Of a stretch of 35,294 bases of DNA, positions 23,298 to 29,049 are shown piece by piece (the stretch's first letter is position 1; each line of letters opens with the position of its first letter). The stretch comes from Natrialba swarupiae. GTDB taxonomy: Archaea > Halobacteriota > Halobacteria > Halobacteriales > Natrialbaceae. Made by a program: the position numbers and the translations under genes. The DNA is taken from positions 1 through 35,294 of the forward strand of contig NZ_VTAW01000036.1 in assembly GCF_008245225.1 (NCBI RefSeq), in the 5' to 3' direction. The notes beneath the pieces are model-generated. The model was not told where the DNA came from and searched no databases. It was given only the letters and a program-made list of their open reading frames with translations.

Positions 23298-23948
23298 TCA
23301 CTCGATATGAGAGGCGAATCGACAGAAGTTCTCGATCATCCGTTTGCCGACTCGAAGCGAGATGCCGTCCCCGCTCGAGGTGTCGTCGTGGCCCCGCGTG
23401 AGAATCGATTCGGGGTGGAACTGGACGCCAACGTGGGGTTTCTCGCGGTGGCGAACCGCCATCAGGACGCCGCGTTCGTCGGTCGTCCGGGCCGTCTCAC
23501 AGAGCGAACCCGGCAGGTCGGCCCGGTCGACCGCAAGCGAGTGGTACCGGCCGACCTGGAACGTCTCGGGGAGCCCCGAAAAGATCCCGTCGCCGTCGTG
23601 GGAGACCGTCGACGGCTTCCCGTGGACGACCTCCGGCGCGTGGACGACGGGTGCGCCGTTTGCCGCACACAGTGCCTGGTGGCCGAGACAGACGCCCAGG
23701 ATCGGGTACTCGGTCTTGGCGAACAGCGGGATCGAGATCCCAGCCTCCTGTGGGGTACCGGGGCCCGGCGAGACGACGATTCCGGTCGGCTCGAGGCCAC
23801 GGACGCTCTCGAGATCGATCTCGTCGTTTCGCCGGACGATCACCTCGTCGGCGACCGTACCCACGTACTGAACGAGGTTGTACGCAAACGAGTCGTAGTT
23901 GTCCACTACCAGAATCCGCGTCTCGTCGGCTCCCGCAGGATCACTCAT
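23298..23948 (-). CDS. pabA: Glutamine amidotransferase subunit, aminodeoxychorismate synthase (PabA)
   Basis: A 216-residue class I glutamine amidotransferase that supplies ammonia to its partner synthase. The nucleophile is C87 in [10 protein letters not shown], and the triad partners are H178 and E180 in FHPES. The oxyanion-loop motif [11 protein letters not shown] and [14 protein letters not shown] at the N-terminus mark the TrpG/PabA family. The ATG at 23948 overlaps the pabB stop by eight bases, so the two are translationally coupled. A GTG at 23966 would add six residues. TrpG cannot be fully excluded by sequence alone. The pabC homologue nearby and the absence of other trp genes favour PabA. 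Confidence 0.9.
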
Positions 23949-25557
23949 CGGAATCACCACCGCCACGTCCCTCGAGCGAGGCCGCTTCGCTCGCCGTCAG
24001 TTCGCTCTCCACCTCGAGACCCATTCCCGCTCGCTCGCCGAGCGCGTCGTCGACGGCGGTGATGAGCGCCCGCGCCTTGTCCAGGGTCTCGTCGTACTCG
24101 CGGTAGGGCTCGGAGTCGTGGACGATGCCGGCTCCGACCCGGAGGTGGTACTCCTCGCCGTGGCGGACGAGCGTCCGGATGACGATGTTGAGCGTCGCAC
24201 GGCCGTCGAATCCGAAGATCCCGACGCCGCCCGTGTAGGGACCGCGACGCGTCGCCTCGAGTTCGTCGATGATCTCCATCGTTCGCGGCTTCGGCGCGCC
24301 GGTGATCGTCCCGCCAGGGAACGTCGCGGCGATCGCGTCGGCGAGCGTCGCCTCCGGCCGCAGCGTGCCGGTGACGTTCGAGACGAGGTGCATCACCTCC
24401 GAGTAGCGGTCGATCCGGCGATACTCGTCGACCTCGACGGAGCCGTACGCACAGACTTTCCCGAGGTCGTTTCGCTCGAGATCGACCAACATTGCGTGTT
24501 CGGCCCGCTCCTTCTCGTCTGCCAGCAGGTCCGCCTCGAGGTCGGCGTCCGCCTCGGCCGTCTCGCCCCGCGGTCTGGTCCCTGCGATCGGTTCGGTCCG
24601 GACGAAGTCGTCGTCTCGCTCGAGTAAGAGTTCGGGACTCGCGCTCACCAGGTCGGCCGCTCGGAACTCGAGCAGACACGAGTAGGGAGCGGGGTTGACC
24701 CGGCGGAGCGCGCCGTAGGCGGCGACCGGGTGGACCGCCGCGGGTGCGACCAGCCGCTGGGAGATGTTCGTCTGGAACGTATCGCCGTCCCGGACGTACT
24801 CTTTGACGCGGCGGACCCGCTCGGCGAACGCCTCCCGGCCGCAGTCGCTCTCGAAGGTCGCCTCCGAGGCGTCGACGGGCGGCCCGCCGACGGACGGGTC
24901 GCCCTCGAGCGCCCGGCGAGCGAGCTCGAGGGCCCGTTCCCGACCGCGTTCGTAGGCCGCCTCGAGCATCGCGTCGTCGATGTCTCCGTCCGTTGTGCCG
25001 CCCGATCCGGTGTGGTCGATCCGCGGACAGGCTGTGATCCGGAGGGTCACGTCGCCGTCGGTCGGCTCCGTCCAGGCCGCGAGTGCGTCGTAGACCCGAA
25101 TCTCGAGACGCGGCAGTTCGCGGTCGTCGACGGCCGACTCGGGGAGATCCTCGAACTCACGGGCGACGTCGTAGGAGAGCCAGCCGACGGCTCCACAGGG
25201 GTAGGGGACGTCACACTCGCCGCGGACGAGTTCGGTGGAATCGAGTAGCCCCTCGAGTGCGGCGAGCGTCGGCGATCCGTCGTCGCCGTCTCGGGTCACC
25301 GCGTCCGGTCCAACCGTGAGCCGATCGACGGGGTCGACGCCGAAGTACCCCCGCCCCGGCTGGCCACCGGTCGTCTCGAGGTAGGCGCCGTCGTTGCGCT
25401 CTTCGCGCGCCCGGCGATAGGCACGGAACGGGTCGTCGACGGTGAGACGGGCTTCGACGGGGGTTCGGACGTCACACACTCCGTCTCGAGGTGCTTCGAC
25501 GCCGCGAGCGGCGGCTCGGAACGACTCGAGTGTCGTGACGATCCGCGGCTCGTTCAT
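23941..25557 (-). CDS. pabB: Aminodeoxychorismate synthase component I (PabB)
   Basis: A 538-residue chorismate-binding enzyme of the TrpE/PabB family that aminates chorismate using ammonia from PabA. Conserved C-terminal blocks are visible: [97 protein letters not shown] and [19 protein letters not shown]. The N-terminal domain (about 1-230) is longer and acidic. The ATG at 25557 ([13 protein letters not shown]) is used; the upstream frame lacks family sequence. Assignment as PabB rather than TrpE depends on context (pabA overlap, pabC in line). The GtrA gene diverges from it. Confidence 0.9.
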
Positions 25558-25747
25558 ACCCGCCGAGACGAAGTGGAGGGGTAATCCTCTTGCGGTTTTC
25601 ACACTTTTCACCGCGGTCGATCTCCTCGAAACTCCGTCCTGTACTCGAGAACCGGGAGTACAGGTCGGTGTTCGACCGCCAGTCTCCGAGTCAGCACGCT
25701 TTTGCGGCGGTAGCCGGTTTACTCGAACGAACGCGACAGCTACTACG

Positions 25748-26194
25748 ATGATCGATTCCGTCGTCGAAGCCGTCCAGATGCGGACTCGAGCCCTATTGTC
25801 GGCGACGCGACTGACGCAGTTTGCTGGGGTCGGTTTCGTCGGTGCGATCGTCGATTTCGTCGCACTCTACGCGCTCGTCGAGTGGACGGTGCTCGGCCCC
25901 GTCGTCGGAAAGGCGATCTCGTGGGAGCTATCGATCGTCGTCATCTTCGCGATCAACGAACGCTGGACGTTCAGCGAGTTCGGCTCCGTCGGGCCTCGAG
26001 CGCTCGGAAGGCGATTTCTTCGCTCGAACGCGGTTCGGTTTGCCGGCTTTCTCGTGACGCTCGCGGTGCTTACGGGGCTGGTGTACGGGTTCGGAGTCTG
26101 GTATCTTGCGGCGAATGCGGTCGGTGTCGGGATCGGCTTCTTCGTCAACTACACCTGTGAAAGTCTCTACACCTGGAAGGTACACCGTGACTAG
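25748..26194 (+). CDS. GtrA family membrane protein
   Basis: A 148-residue protein with four predicted membrane helices and the GtrA pattern: [21 protein letters not shown] in the first helix, a charged INERWTFSE loop in the middle and [15 protein letters not shown] at the end. GtrA proteins are thought to move lipid-linked sugars across the membrane for surface glycan assembly, so it may serve the glycosylation pathway. The ATG at 25748 gives a normal length. It is divergent from pabB, with about 190 bases between. Confidence 0.9.
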
Positions 26195-26260: not shown

Positions 26261-26335
26261 AGCGGGATGGGATAGCCAGGAGATTCCGGCGGGCTCATAA
26301 CCCGCAGACCGGTAGTTCAAATCTACCTCCCGCTA
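26261..26335 (+). tRNA. Initiator tRNA-Met (CAT)
   Basis: A 75-base tRNA with a perfect 7-bp acceptor stem (AGCGGGA with TCCCGCT), a discriminator A, an anticodon arm CGGGCTCATAACCCG with CAT in the loop, and a T arm GGTAGTTCAAATCTACC. The A1-T72 acceptor pair and the three G-C pairs beside the anticodon loop (GGG/CCC) are the marks of initiator tRNA, and the sequence looks very like the known Haloferax initiator. The CCA is not encoded. A T4 run at 26337-26340 probably ends the transcript. There is no intron. The methionyl-tRNA synthetase gene lies nearby on the other strand. Confidence 0.97.
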
Positions 26336-26466
26336 CTTTTCGACGCGAATAATAACTCCGAGCGTAGCGAGGTGTGTCGTGAGCGTCGAAAATAGCGTAG
26401 TGGTAGTTTGAACTAGACGGCACCCGAGCGAAGCGAGGGTGACGGCGTAGTTCAAATCTACCTCCC
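26312..26466 (+). repeat. Partial copy of the tRNA 3' half downstream, with hairpins
   Basis: The 20-mer GTAGTTCAAATCTACCTCCC at 26312-26331 inside the tRNA recurs exactly at 26447-26466. Between the copies, TTTTCGACGC (26337-26346) pairs with GCGTCGAAAA (26383-26392). GGTAGTTTGAACTA (from 26402) can pair with the downstream copy TAGTTCAAATCTACC, with one bulge. The arrangement resembles an att-site remnant or a mobile hairpin; there is no integrase within the window. Confidence 0.85.
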
Positions 26467-26606: not shown

Positions 26607-26759
26607 TCAGTGTGCCGCGTGGACGTGATCGCGAAGCGAGTCGCGATCGTCGAAGGCCTCGTTGCAGACGGCGCAGGTGTCGTGGTGCAACGGGAGGTGC
26701 TGGGTGAGCGCCGCGACCGATTCGAACTCTGCGTCACAGGACGAACAGGTGTGAGTCAT
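26607..26759 (-). CDS. Small double C2H2 zinc-finger protein
   Basis: A 50-residue protein with two C2H2-type fingers: C5-x2-C8 with a His pair about 12 residues later (CSSCDAEFESVAALTQHLPLHH), and a second unit (CAVCNEAFDDRDSLRDHVHAAH). It is similar in size and make-up to haloarchaeal zinc-finger microproteins, some of which are regulators. The ATG at 26759 (MTHTCSSC) starts just before the first cysteine; the earlier in-frame start adds residues of no clear character. It lies between initiator tRNA-Met and metG, oriented like metG. DNA, RNA or protein binding cannot be told apart from sequence. Confidence 0.85.
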   Translation of the reverse strand: MTHTCSSCDAEFESVAALTQHLPLHHDTCAVCNEAFDDRDSLRDHVHAAH

Positions 26760-26943
26760 TGCGATTGAACTAGCCGCGCCAGCGTACAAAAAAGGACCTT
26801 ACAACTCCGCCAGCCGGGTTGGCTCTCTCTAACAATCGGTTCGAAGAGATTGTGAAACTGCTTCGAGTGGATCGTCATCGTCGTGACCCCCTTCGCGAGC
26901 GAAACGGTGTGGATTGCTCGAGCGAGTCGTTGCGGACGTGTGA

Positions 26944-29049
26944 CTACCGGATCTTCTCGCCGATCGCGGCGTCGTCGTGGGTCGTCAGCAGATCGGCTTG
27001 CTCGCCCGCAGCGAGGATCATTCCGTTGGACTCGACGCCGAACAGTTCGGCGGGTTCCATGTTCGCGAGCAGAATACACTTCTCGCCGGGCAGTTCCTCG
27101 AGGTCGTGAAGCTGTTTGATGCCGGCGACGACCTGTCGGGTCTCGAAGCCGATGTCGACCTCGAGGCGTGCGAGGTCGTCTGCGCCGTCGATTCCCTCGG
27201 CAGTTTCGATGCGCCCGACGCGAATGTCTACGTCCTGGAACTCCTCGAAGCCGATGCGATCCTCGAGTAAGGGCTCGAGGTCGTCGGTGTCTGTCATGGC
27301 CTCGGATTCGTCCGACGGGGTGTCGTCGTTTTCGATTTCCGCTTCGTCTCCGTCCGCGTCGTCGTCGTCTGTCGCCGCTTCGACGCGTTCCTCGAGTTTC
27401 TCGGTGAGTTCGTCGACCCGGTCGTCTTCGATCTTCGCGAACAGTTCGCCGGGTTCGGCGAAGGTCTGGGGCGGCGTCTCGAGGGCGGCCTCGAGGTGGG
27501 TATCGGCGATCTCGCCGTCTTCGCCGATCTGCTCCCACAGCGCCTGTGATTTATCGGGCGTGATCGGCTCGAGCAGGACGGCGACGGCTTTGGCGATCTG
27601 GACGCAGTCGCGGATGACCTGTGCGGCCGCCTCGGGGTCCTCGTCGGTGAGCTTCCAGGGCTCGTTGCGCTGGATGTACTCGTTGCCGAACTGCGCTAAG
27701 CGGACGGCCGCCTGACCGACGCCGCGAAGCGAGTAGTCGTTGACGCTCTCTCGAACCTCGCCGATGGCACCCTCGATGCGCTCTTGAACGTCGGCCGAGA
27801 CGTCCGTCTCCGGCGTCCCCTCGTAGTTGCGGTAGGCAAAGAGCAGCGATCGGTACCAGAAGTTGCCGACCGTACCCACGAGTTCGCCGTTTACCTTCTC
27901 CTGGAAGGCGTCCCAGGAGAAGTCGACGTCCTGCTGGAGGCCGCCGGTGGTCGTCAGATAGTACCGCAGGAGGTCGGGATGGAATCCCTCCTCGAGATAC
28001 TCTTTCGCCCAGATTGCCCGGTTGCGGCTGGTCGAGAGCCCCTTCCCGTTGATCGTGATGAAACCGGTCGCGGCGACGCCACGGGGCGCGTTGTAGTCTG
28101 CGCCCTCGAGCATCGCGGGCCAGAAGATCGTGTGGTGCTGGATGATGTCGCGGCCGATGACGTGGACAATCTCGCCGTCGCCCCGCCAGACCTCCTCCCA
28201 GTCGTACTCCTCGGCCCCGACGCGCTCTGTGTACTGCTTCGTTGAGGAGATGTACTCGATCGGCGCGTCGACCCAGACGTAGAGGACGATCTCCTCGTCC
28301 TCCTCGCCGGGGTAGTCGATGCCCCAGTCCATATCGCGGGTGAGACACCAGTCTTGCAGTCCCTCTTCGATCCACTGGCGGGGCTGGTTGCGCGCGTTCG
28401 ACGTCCCCTCTAAGTCGTCTAAGAACTCGGTGAGGTAGTCGGCGAACTCGGAGACGCGGAAGAACTTGTGAGTGCGTTCGCGATACTCCGCGGGGTTGCC
28501 CGTGCGGACGCTCGTCGGGTTCTCGATCTCTCCCGGCTCTAAGTGGCGTTGACAGCCCTCGTCGCATTCGTCGCCGCGGGCTTTCGCGCCACAGTAAGGA
28601 CAGGTCCCCTCGACGTAGCGGTCGGGGAGGTAGTCGTCGGCCGTCGGATCGTAGGCGACGACGACCTCGTCTTCGTAGACGTAGTCGTTTTCGTCCAACG
28701 TCCGGACGATATCGCGGGTGAGTTCGGTGTTGGTCTCGTCGTGGGTGTGACCGTAGTTGTCGAACTCGACGTTGAACTTGGGGAACGTCTCCTCGTACTG
28801 TCGGTGCCACTCGAGGGCGAACTCGGCGGGATCGACGCCCTGTTCTTCGGCGTTGACGGCGACCGGCGTGCCGTGCATGTCGGAGCCGGAGACGTACGCC
28901 GTCTGCTGGCCAAGCGTCTCGAGGGCGCGGGAGAAGGCGTCCGCGCCGATGTATCCACGGAGGTGACCGATGTGCAGGTCGCCGTTGGCGTAGGGCAACC
29001 CGCAGGTCACGACCGCGGGGCGGTCCGTCGGAAAGTCGTCGTTGGTCAT
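26944..29049 (-). CDS. metG: Methionyl-tRNA synthetase
   Basis: A 701-residue class I synthetase that charges tRNA-Met. The HIGH motif is H26-I27-G28-H29. The KMSKS equivalent is KGLSTS at 336-341. A zinc knuckle has C150, C153, C162 and C166, and the anticodon-binding helices follow. A fused C-terminal tRNA-binding domain of the EMAP/Arc1 kind lies at about 597-701 (FQDVDIRVGRIETAEG, LANMEPAELFGVESNGMILAA), joined by an acidic linker (about 550-590). Length fits the archaeal long form. A likely leaderless promoter is noted below. Its substrate tRNA lies about 600 bases beyond its 3' end. Confidence 0.97.
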   Translation of the reverse strand: MTNDDFPTDRPAVVTCGLPYANGDLHIGHLRGYIGADAFSRALETLGQQTAYVSGSDMHGTPVAVNAEEQGVDPAEFALEWHRQYEETFPKFNVEFDNYGHTHDETNTELTRDIVRTLDENDYVYEDEVVVAYDPTADDYLPDRYVEGTCPYCGAKARGDECDEGCQRHLEPGEIENPTSVRTGNPAEYRERTHKFFRVSEFADYLTEFLDDLEGTSNARNQPRQWIEEGLQDWCLTRDMDWGIDYPGEEDEEIVLYVWVDAPIEYISSTKQYTERVGAEEYDWEEVWRGDGEIVHVIGRDIIQHHTIFWPAMLEGADYNAPRGVAATGFITINGKGLSTSRNRAIWAKEYLEEGFHPDLLRYYLTTTGGLQQDVDFSWDAFQEKVNGELVGTVGNFWYRSLLFAYRNYEGTPETDVSADVQERIEGAIGEVRESVNDYSLRGVGQAAVRLAQFGNEYIQRNEPWKLTDEDPEAAAQVIRDCVQIAKAVAVLLEPITPDKSQALWEQIGEDGEIADTHLEAALETPPQTFAEPGELFAKIEDDRVDELTEKLEERVEAATDDDDADGDEAEIENDDTPSDESEAMTDTDDLEPLLEDRIGFEEFQDVDIRVGRIETAEGIDGADDLARLEVDIGFETRQVVAGIKQLHDLEELPGEKCILLANMEPAELFGVESNGMILAAGEQADLLTTHDDAAIGEKIR

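Follow-up and report, generated by a model that had tools for sequence, protein, structure and literature searches.

Positions 26336–26466 of the window (the whole 35,294-nucleotide stretch of Natrialba swarupiae DNA that was analysed) are, on very good support, a single unit in a family of cassettes that contain no genes and lie behind the tRNA genes of Halobacteriales. Each unit follows the same plan, comprising a segment of the tRNA 3' end (D), a hairpin that starts at the tRNA end (hairpin A), an inverted copy of the T-arm (D'), a palindrome (B) and, finally, D again. The units lack genes, measure about 75–150 bp and often form tandem arrays downstream of tRNA genes, with up to five copies at 20/21 identity or better behind a single tRNA gene. 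It is likewise very well supported that they form a class, with an architecture that is order-wide and genome-wide, rather than a one-off instance. The class is apparently undescribed; a search of the open-access literature yielded no description of such arrays.

Viruses and plasmids classically land at the 3' ends of tRNA genes, and the reason for this is an old question. A structured repeat class that accompanies roughly half the tRNA genes of the counted genomes, occurs throughout an order and has arms matched to the sequence of each tRNA represents a large natural data set with which to address it. It also places the unexplained RtT repeats of Escherichia coli in a wider setting and supplies a testable candidate for a folded-DNA recombination system outside the known integrons, and it may reveal an integron-like route to DNA arrays. 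The class would have to be considered whenever tRNA loci, att sites and genomic islands of archaea are annotated.

The unit behind the initiator tRNA-Met gene

The initiator tRNA-Met (iMet) gene is intact (26261–26335 by Rfam RF00005; 26261–26336 by ARAGORN), as the first-pass annotation of this DNA had stated, and is the sole match in an Rfam scan of the window. All features of the locus lie on the forward strand. D occupies 26315–26335 and corresponds to tRNA nt 53–73, from the T-loop to the discriminator, the boundaries of this copied segment being taken from 55 exact copies in three genomes. Hairpin A spans 26332–26396 with its tip GAGCGTAGCGAG at 26360; its 10-bp arms (26337–26346 and 26383–26392) form a perfect inverted repeat, as previously described, and continue outward via GCTA/TAGC with one base skipped. 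Next come D' (GGTAGTTTGAACTA, 26402–26415), the inverted copy of the tRNA-iMet T-arm, which is tRNA-specific across the class as a whole, and palindrome B (GACGGCACCCGAGCGAAGCGAGGGTGACGGC, 26416–26446) with the tip GAGCGAAGCGAG at 26426; the loop type of this palindrome recurs in other genomes behind the genes for tRNA-iMet, elongator tRNA-Met, tRNA-Val and tRNA-Arg. The downstream D copy (26447–26466) reads GTTCAAATCTACCTCCC at 26450–26466, after which ACCC replaces GCTA.

The repeat that had drawn attention to the locus, the 20-mer GTAGTTCAAATCTACCTCCC, is indeed exact at 26312–26331 and 26447–26466 (135 bp apart), and the second arm at 26402–26415 pairs with the downstream copy as proposed; the natural repeat, however, begins with GTTC (tRNA nt 53, position 26315) and not with GTA. 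The D copies are 115 bp apart, and the interval consists of hairpins only. Since the downstream copy ends four nucleotides before the tRNA end, while other members copy nt 53–73 exactly, the window unit is a slightly damaged member of the class. Folded as RNA, the 139-nt stretch at this locus reaches −58.1 kcal/mol (z −4.7 against shuffles), and folded as DNA it gives z −5.0 for the tRNA-sense strand versus z −3.0 for the opposite strand.

The locus is flanked by genes for a GtrA-like membrane protein (25442–26194, forward strand) and, further upstream, anthranilate synthase component I (23941–25611, reverse strand), and on its other side by genes for a small C2H2 zinc-finger protein (26607–26789) and methionyl-tRNA synthetase (26944–29049), both on the reverse strand. 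That the methionyl-tRNA synthetase gene adjoins that of tRNA-iMet may be a coincidence.

Census of tRNA loci

A search of 41 related genomes revealed extra tRNA 3'-end copies behind iMet in many of them, as well as look-alikes behind the genes for tRNA-Val, -Ser, -Pro, -Arg, -Asp, -Leu, -Gly and elongator tRNA-Met, the copied and inverted pieces of each look-alike belonging to its own adjoining tRNA. When the 3' region of tRNA-iMet was compared among relatives, a step that the first-pass annotation had suggested, D copies were present at 24 of 30 iMet loci. It had also suggested a search for genomic copies of the spacer; the many copies that exist have the unit plan in common and not a single spacer sequence.

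The census covered all tRNA genes of three genomes from two families, namely the window genome and two sister species of another family (G035 and G096), and scored copies with at least 18/21 identities no more than 500 bp downstream; all counts were drawn from tRNA loci and from searches with patterns. A copy of the gene's own 3' end was present downstream of 16 of 42, 19 of 44 and 22 of 42 tRNA genes, respectively, whereas the 3' ends of other tRNAs were found there in 0 of 1616, 3 of 1760 and 5 of 1584 tests (8/4,960 overall). The tRNA's own 3' end occurred upstream in one, zero and zero cases, of which the single one is a duplicated Asp gene. Repeats of a different part of the same tRNA likewise numbered one, zero and zero. 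A chance origin of the window repeat is ruled out by this census.

The boundaries of the copies are sharp. Among the 55 exact copies from the three genomes, 54 begin within four nucleotides of nt 53; the copied segment starts with the G of GTTC (nt 52/53) and in most cases runs to the discriminator or to within two nucleotides of it.

Folding, covariation and strand polarity

As D' is the inverted T-arm of the tRNA to which D belongs, D'-B-D folds as a long hairpin. In a set of 50 distinct unit arms, 89.5% of cells show pairing between D and D', and 69 cells are changed on both sides as opposed to 29.9 in shuffles. The covariation score is 0.289 compared with 0.145 when shuffled, and it does not exceed 0.105 when the arms are slid. 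Furthermore, D' fits the T-stem of its own tRNA better than those of other tRNAs (2.68 of 4 against a null of 1.72, the best of 1000 nulls reaching 2.0).

The strand that folds is the tRNA-sense strand. GCGNAGC tips number 53 in the sense and 4 in the antisense orientation (25 versus 34 in an upstream control), and GNA loops with a G-C closing pair form DNA mini-hairpins of very high stability (PMC4686876). Within the B loops, mismatches are similarly one-sided, with 132 of G.A against 3 of T.C, while the wobble pair is not preferred (G.T 22, A.C 26). Selection on RNA should favour G.U; the polarity and the mismatch pattern lean towards single-stranded DNA without proving it, as base composition also contributes.

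Distribution

A strict pattern of the B hairpin matched 37 of the 295 genomes of the phylum, i.e. 37 of the 53 Halobacteriales sampled and none of the 242 others, and its reversed control gave zero matches. With a looser pattern, 40 of 41 genomes were matched, most of them from several families of Halobacteriales. A blind search of 84,980 species was performed with the loop motif and without regard to tRNAs, and among the matches listed every one with a given genus or family was haloarchaeal. Of the 84 copies among the matches listed, 78 lay within 400 bp downstream of a tRNA gene on the same strand, representing 25 tRNA kinds, and 71 had a D of at least 18/21. Of the six remaining copies among those matches, five had no tRNA upstream in the stretch examined (four of them near its end), while in the sixth a 3-kb element with an integrase-like relic separates the tRNA from the unit. 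A few loop types recur behind unrelated tRNAs and across families.

Two plasmids carry a complete iMet gene: that of Haloferax gibbonsii (NZ_CP063207.1, 145744–145952), where it is followed by a unit with an exact D copy and where no mobile gene is named nearby, and that of Natronorubrum aibiense (NZ_CP045490.1, 30504–30592). Viral collections yielded no clear source of the units: a pattern scan of IMG/VR returned 21 contigs, the majority of them bacterial prophages or ordinary coincidental tRNA matches, and a phage collection yielded tRNA matches only.

Presence, absence and exchange of units between sister species

Comparison of G035 with G096 revealed whole units that are present in one species and absent from the other, with precise ends, behind the genes for tRNA-Glu-CTC (102 bp), a Met-CAT tRNA (93 bp), tRNA-Val-GAC (119 bp) and tRNA-Glu-TTC (105 bp); the Asp array displays a tandem duplication. 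When a third species was used as outgroup for the Glu-CTC unit, the match proved to be a Glu-TTC paralogue, so that the difference may be either a gain or a loss. Arrays also exchange material. In G035 the Glu-CTC unit combines, as a mosaic, two units that stand in the Glu-TTC array of G096, yet its D is of the Glu-CTC type. Similarly, one D copy in the Leu-TAA array of G096 matches Leu-TAG at 20/21, with the foreign D proximal and the native D distal, an order that matches the product expected of a crossover in the common T-loop core.

The three copies in the Arg-TCT array of G096 agree with the end of this tRNA as it stands in G035, two of them exactly. The 3' end of the tRNA-Arg-TCT gene itself is changed in G096 (L148) relative to G035 (L113), the G096 array retaining the G035 version, and the array is possibly a fossil of a 3'-end replacement.

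The proximal D copy is better preserved in 16 arrays and the distal one in 5, with 9 ties. Orthologous units diverge by 7.2% in the interior and by 7.3% in D, and this equal divergence suggests that old units are unconstrained. Special conservation of the D copies, considered as a proof of function, was not found, D diverging like the interior.

Relation to integrative elements

Segments like D serve integrases as attachment sites, as had been surmised from the window alone, and examples are elements behind tRNA-Tyr and tRNA-Val genes and a Haloquadratum prophage (PMC3119063). In the window genome, an integrase match lies about 5 kb downstream of tRNA-Tyr, and a second exact copy of nt 53–73 occurs at +5602 within a 30-bp identity block (attR). 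The 5.6-kb integrative element at this site (G000:C95:11143–16840) has a tyrosine recombinase match and is bounded by identical 30-bp blocks, of which the tRNA 3' end forms part. A 3-kb element with an integrase relic lies behind tRNA-Val of Haloterrigena salina, and the Haloquadratum prophage in tRNA-Ala has a 22-nt tRNA duplication at its bounds (PMC3119063). Given that these elements use the same segment and that archaeal integrases prefer tRNA 3' ends (PMC8371274), D is an attachment-type site.

Comparison with known systems

The RtT repeats at E. coli tyrT (RF00391) likewise follow a tRNA gene in tandem, and a copy of the tRNA 3' end closes every unit. At the K-12 tyrT locus (L329), the inverted RtT arm GGGGAAGGAT pairs with the tRNA-Tyr 3'-end copy ATCCTTCCCC (fold z −4.2), and the tips are of the GCGAAGC type; we know of no earlier note of this arm and these tips. 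RtT differs from the haloarchaeal units in that its unit is 178 bp long, is bacterial and was found here at tRNA-Tyr only, and in that its copy comprises 19 nt including CCA. The RF00391 covariance model matches the E. coli locus but not the window unit, which is therefore no RtT member by this model, although the D'-loop-D plan is common to both.

Integron cassette arrays also consist of units lined up at one fixed location, with a palindromic site (attC) at the end of every unit, and the asymmetric unpaired bases and definite folded strand of attC (PMC2727003) are features of the haloarchaeal units as well. In contrast to integrons, the latter are gene-free, use a tRNA end instead of attI and fold on the tRNA-sense strand. 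Their core is GTTCRAATC, not the consensus of the integron R box. Neither an integron integrase (IntI) beside the units nor an attC consensus was found, and a profile search returned no PF00589 match on the window contig (C45).

The att sites of haloarchaeal elements that integrate into tRNA genes (SNJ2-type and other tyrosine recombinases; PMC8371274) share the tRNA 3' end as crossover and duplicated segment, but the units carry no genes, measure 75–150 bp, possess hairpin A and the inverted arm, and are tandemly repeated. As in CRISPR arrays and casposon insertions, a target-site repeat is copied per addition and older units are distal (16 to 5), whereas unit interiors are a few recurring hairpin types and not foreign DNA, unlike CRISPR spacers. 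Haloarchaeal PATEs and MITEs are also short, gene-free and palindromic, PATEs having been described in relation to IS605-type transposons (PMC3119063). What may set the units apart is that they are bound to tRNA 3' ends (78 of the 84 blind copies among the matches listed); terminal repeats of a known transposon were not recognised in them.

Proposed mechanism and alternative explanations

Our leading inference, which we put forward tentatively and at somewhat less than an even chance, is cassette-like recombination that acts on a folded strand at tRNA ends. Recombination at the T-loop/3'-end segment, of which integrative elements also make use, would insert, remove and exchange the units, and the recognised substrate would be the folded tRNA-sense strand of D'-B-D, possibly as single-stranded DNA. 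With such a substrate the system could work like an integron array, the tRNA end playing the role of attI and D'-B-D that of attC. The presumed recombinase would probably be a tyrosine recombinase supplied in trans, and older units, being unselected, would decay in place. The first-pass annotation had offered a small mobile hairpin unit as one of two guesses, and this was the better and came close. Several points count against the cassette model: no recombinase, circle or excision product was seen for the units, their presence or absence can also stem from D copies recombining with one another, D and the interior diverge equally and so show no present function, a recipient-specific D' needs an origin at the same tRNA type or later correction, and viral collections hold no clear source. 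A wider version, in which haloarchaea possess an integron-like system, any tRNA gene end is a potential insertion site for matched cassettes and RtT is a bacterial relic, is possible but doubtful; here, gene-free cassettes with tRNA-matched attachment hairpins of folded single-stranded DNA would be added beside the gene and later lost.

Passive array dynamics, in which homologous recombination and replication slippage, acting across D and the common 9–10 bp T-loop core, lengthen, shorten and reshuffle the tandem units with no dedicated enzyme and no function, are a serious competitor that we nevertheless consider unlikely. Every unit is flanked by D repeats, and the mosaic units, the tandem duplication in the Asp array and the equal divergence of D and interior would all follow. 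Hairpin-driven template switching, a process that perfects quasi-palindromes, would match D' to D, but such correction would also erase the strongly one-stranded G.A mismatches. Copy ends that are sharp at nt 53 and 73, and the few loop types recurring behind unrelated tRNAs across families, further weigh against passive dynamics.

Somewhat less probable is a role in RNA, whereby read-through transcripts of the tRNA would fold as trailers for 3' processing, termination or a small-RNA function. The sense-strand polarity, the T-rich first bases after the tRNA in many units, the RNA fold (z −4.7) and the classification of the similarly planned E. coli RtT as RNA in Rfam are in keeping with it. 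However, the loops do not prefer G.U (22 versus 26), distal units decay, whole units are missing from sister species, and the fold does not require an exact copy of the unpaired acceptor strand. The other guess of the first-pass annotation, that a single integrative element entered tRNA-iMet and was lost, leaving a second att core copy, accounts for the direct repeat of the tRNA 3' end in the window and for the use of the same segment by integrase elements (PMC3119063), yet it is very improbable and is abandoned here, given that the plan recurs order-wide, in arrays and behind 25 tRNA kinds (among the matches listed), that copies lie at 24 of 30 related iMet loci, that a scar explains neither the inverted tRNA-specific arm nor hairpin A at their fixed places, and that the window has no integrase and no element genes or remains between the repeats.

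D'-loop-D has an independent look-alike, likewise placed at a tRNA attachment site, in G+C-rich bacterial prophage contigs of IMG/VR (L182, L185, L187, L190, L191, L195 and L199). In these contigs, a perfect palindrome (TAGCGGGGCATGGATTTGAACC...GGTTCAAATCCATGCCCCGCTA or near variants) is built on an inverted tRNA 3' end, and in some of them it is preceded by the perfect palindrome AAGGCCGCTGATTTCGGTACCGAAATCAGCGGCC.
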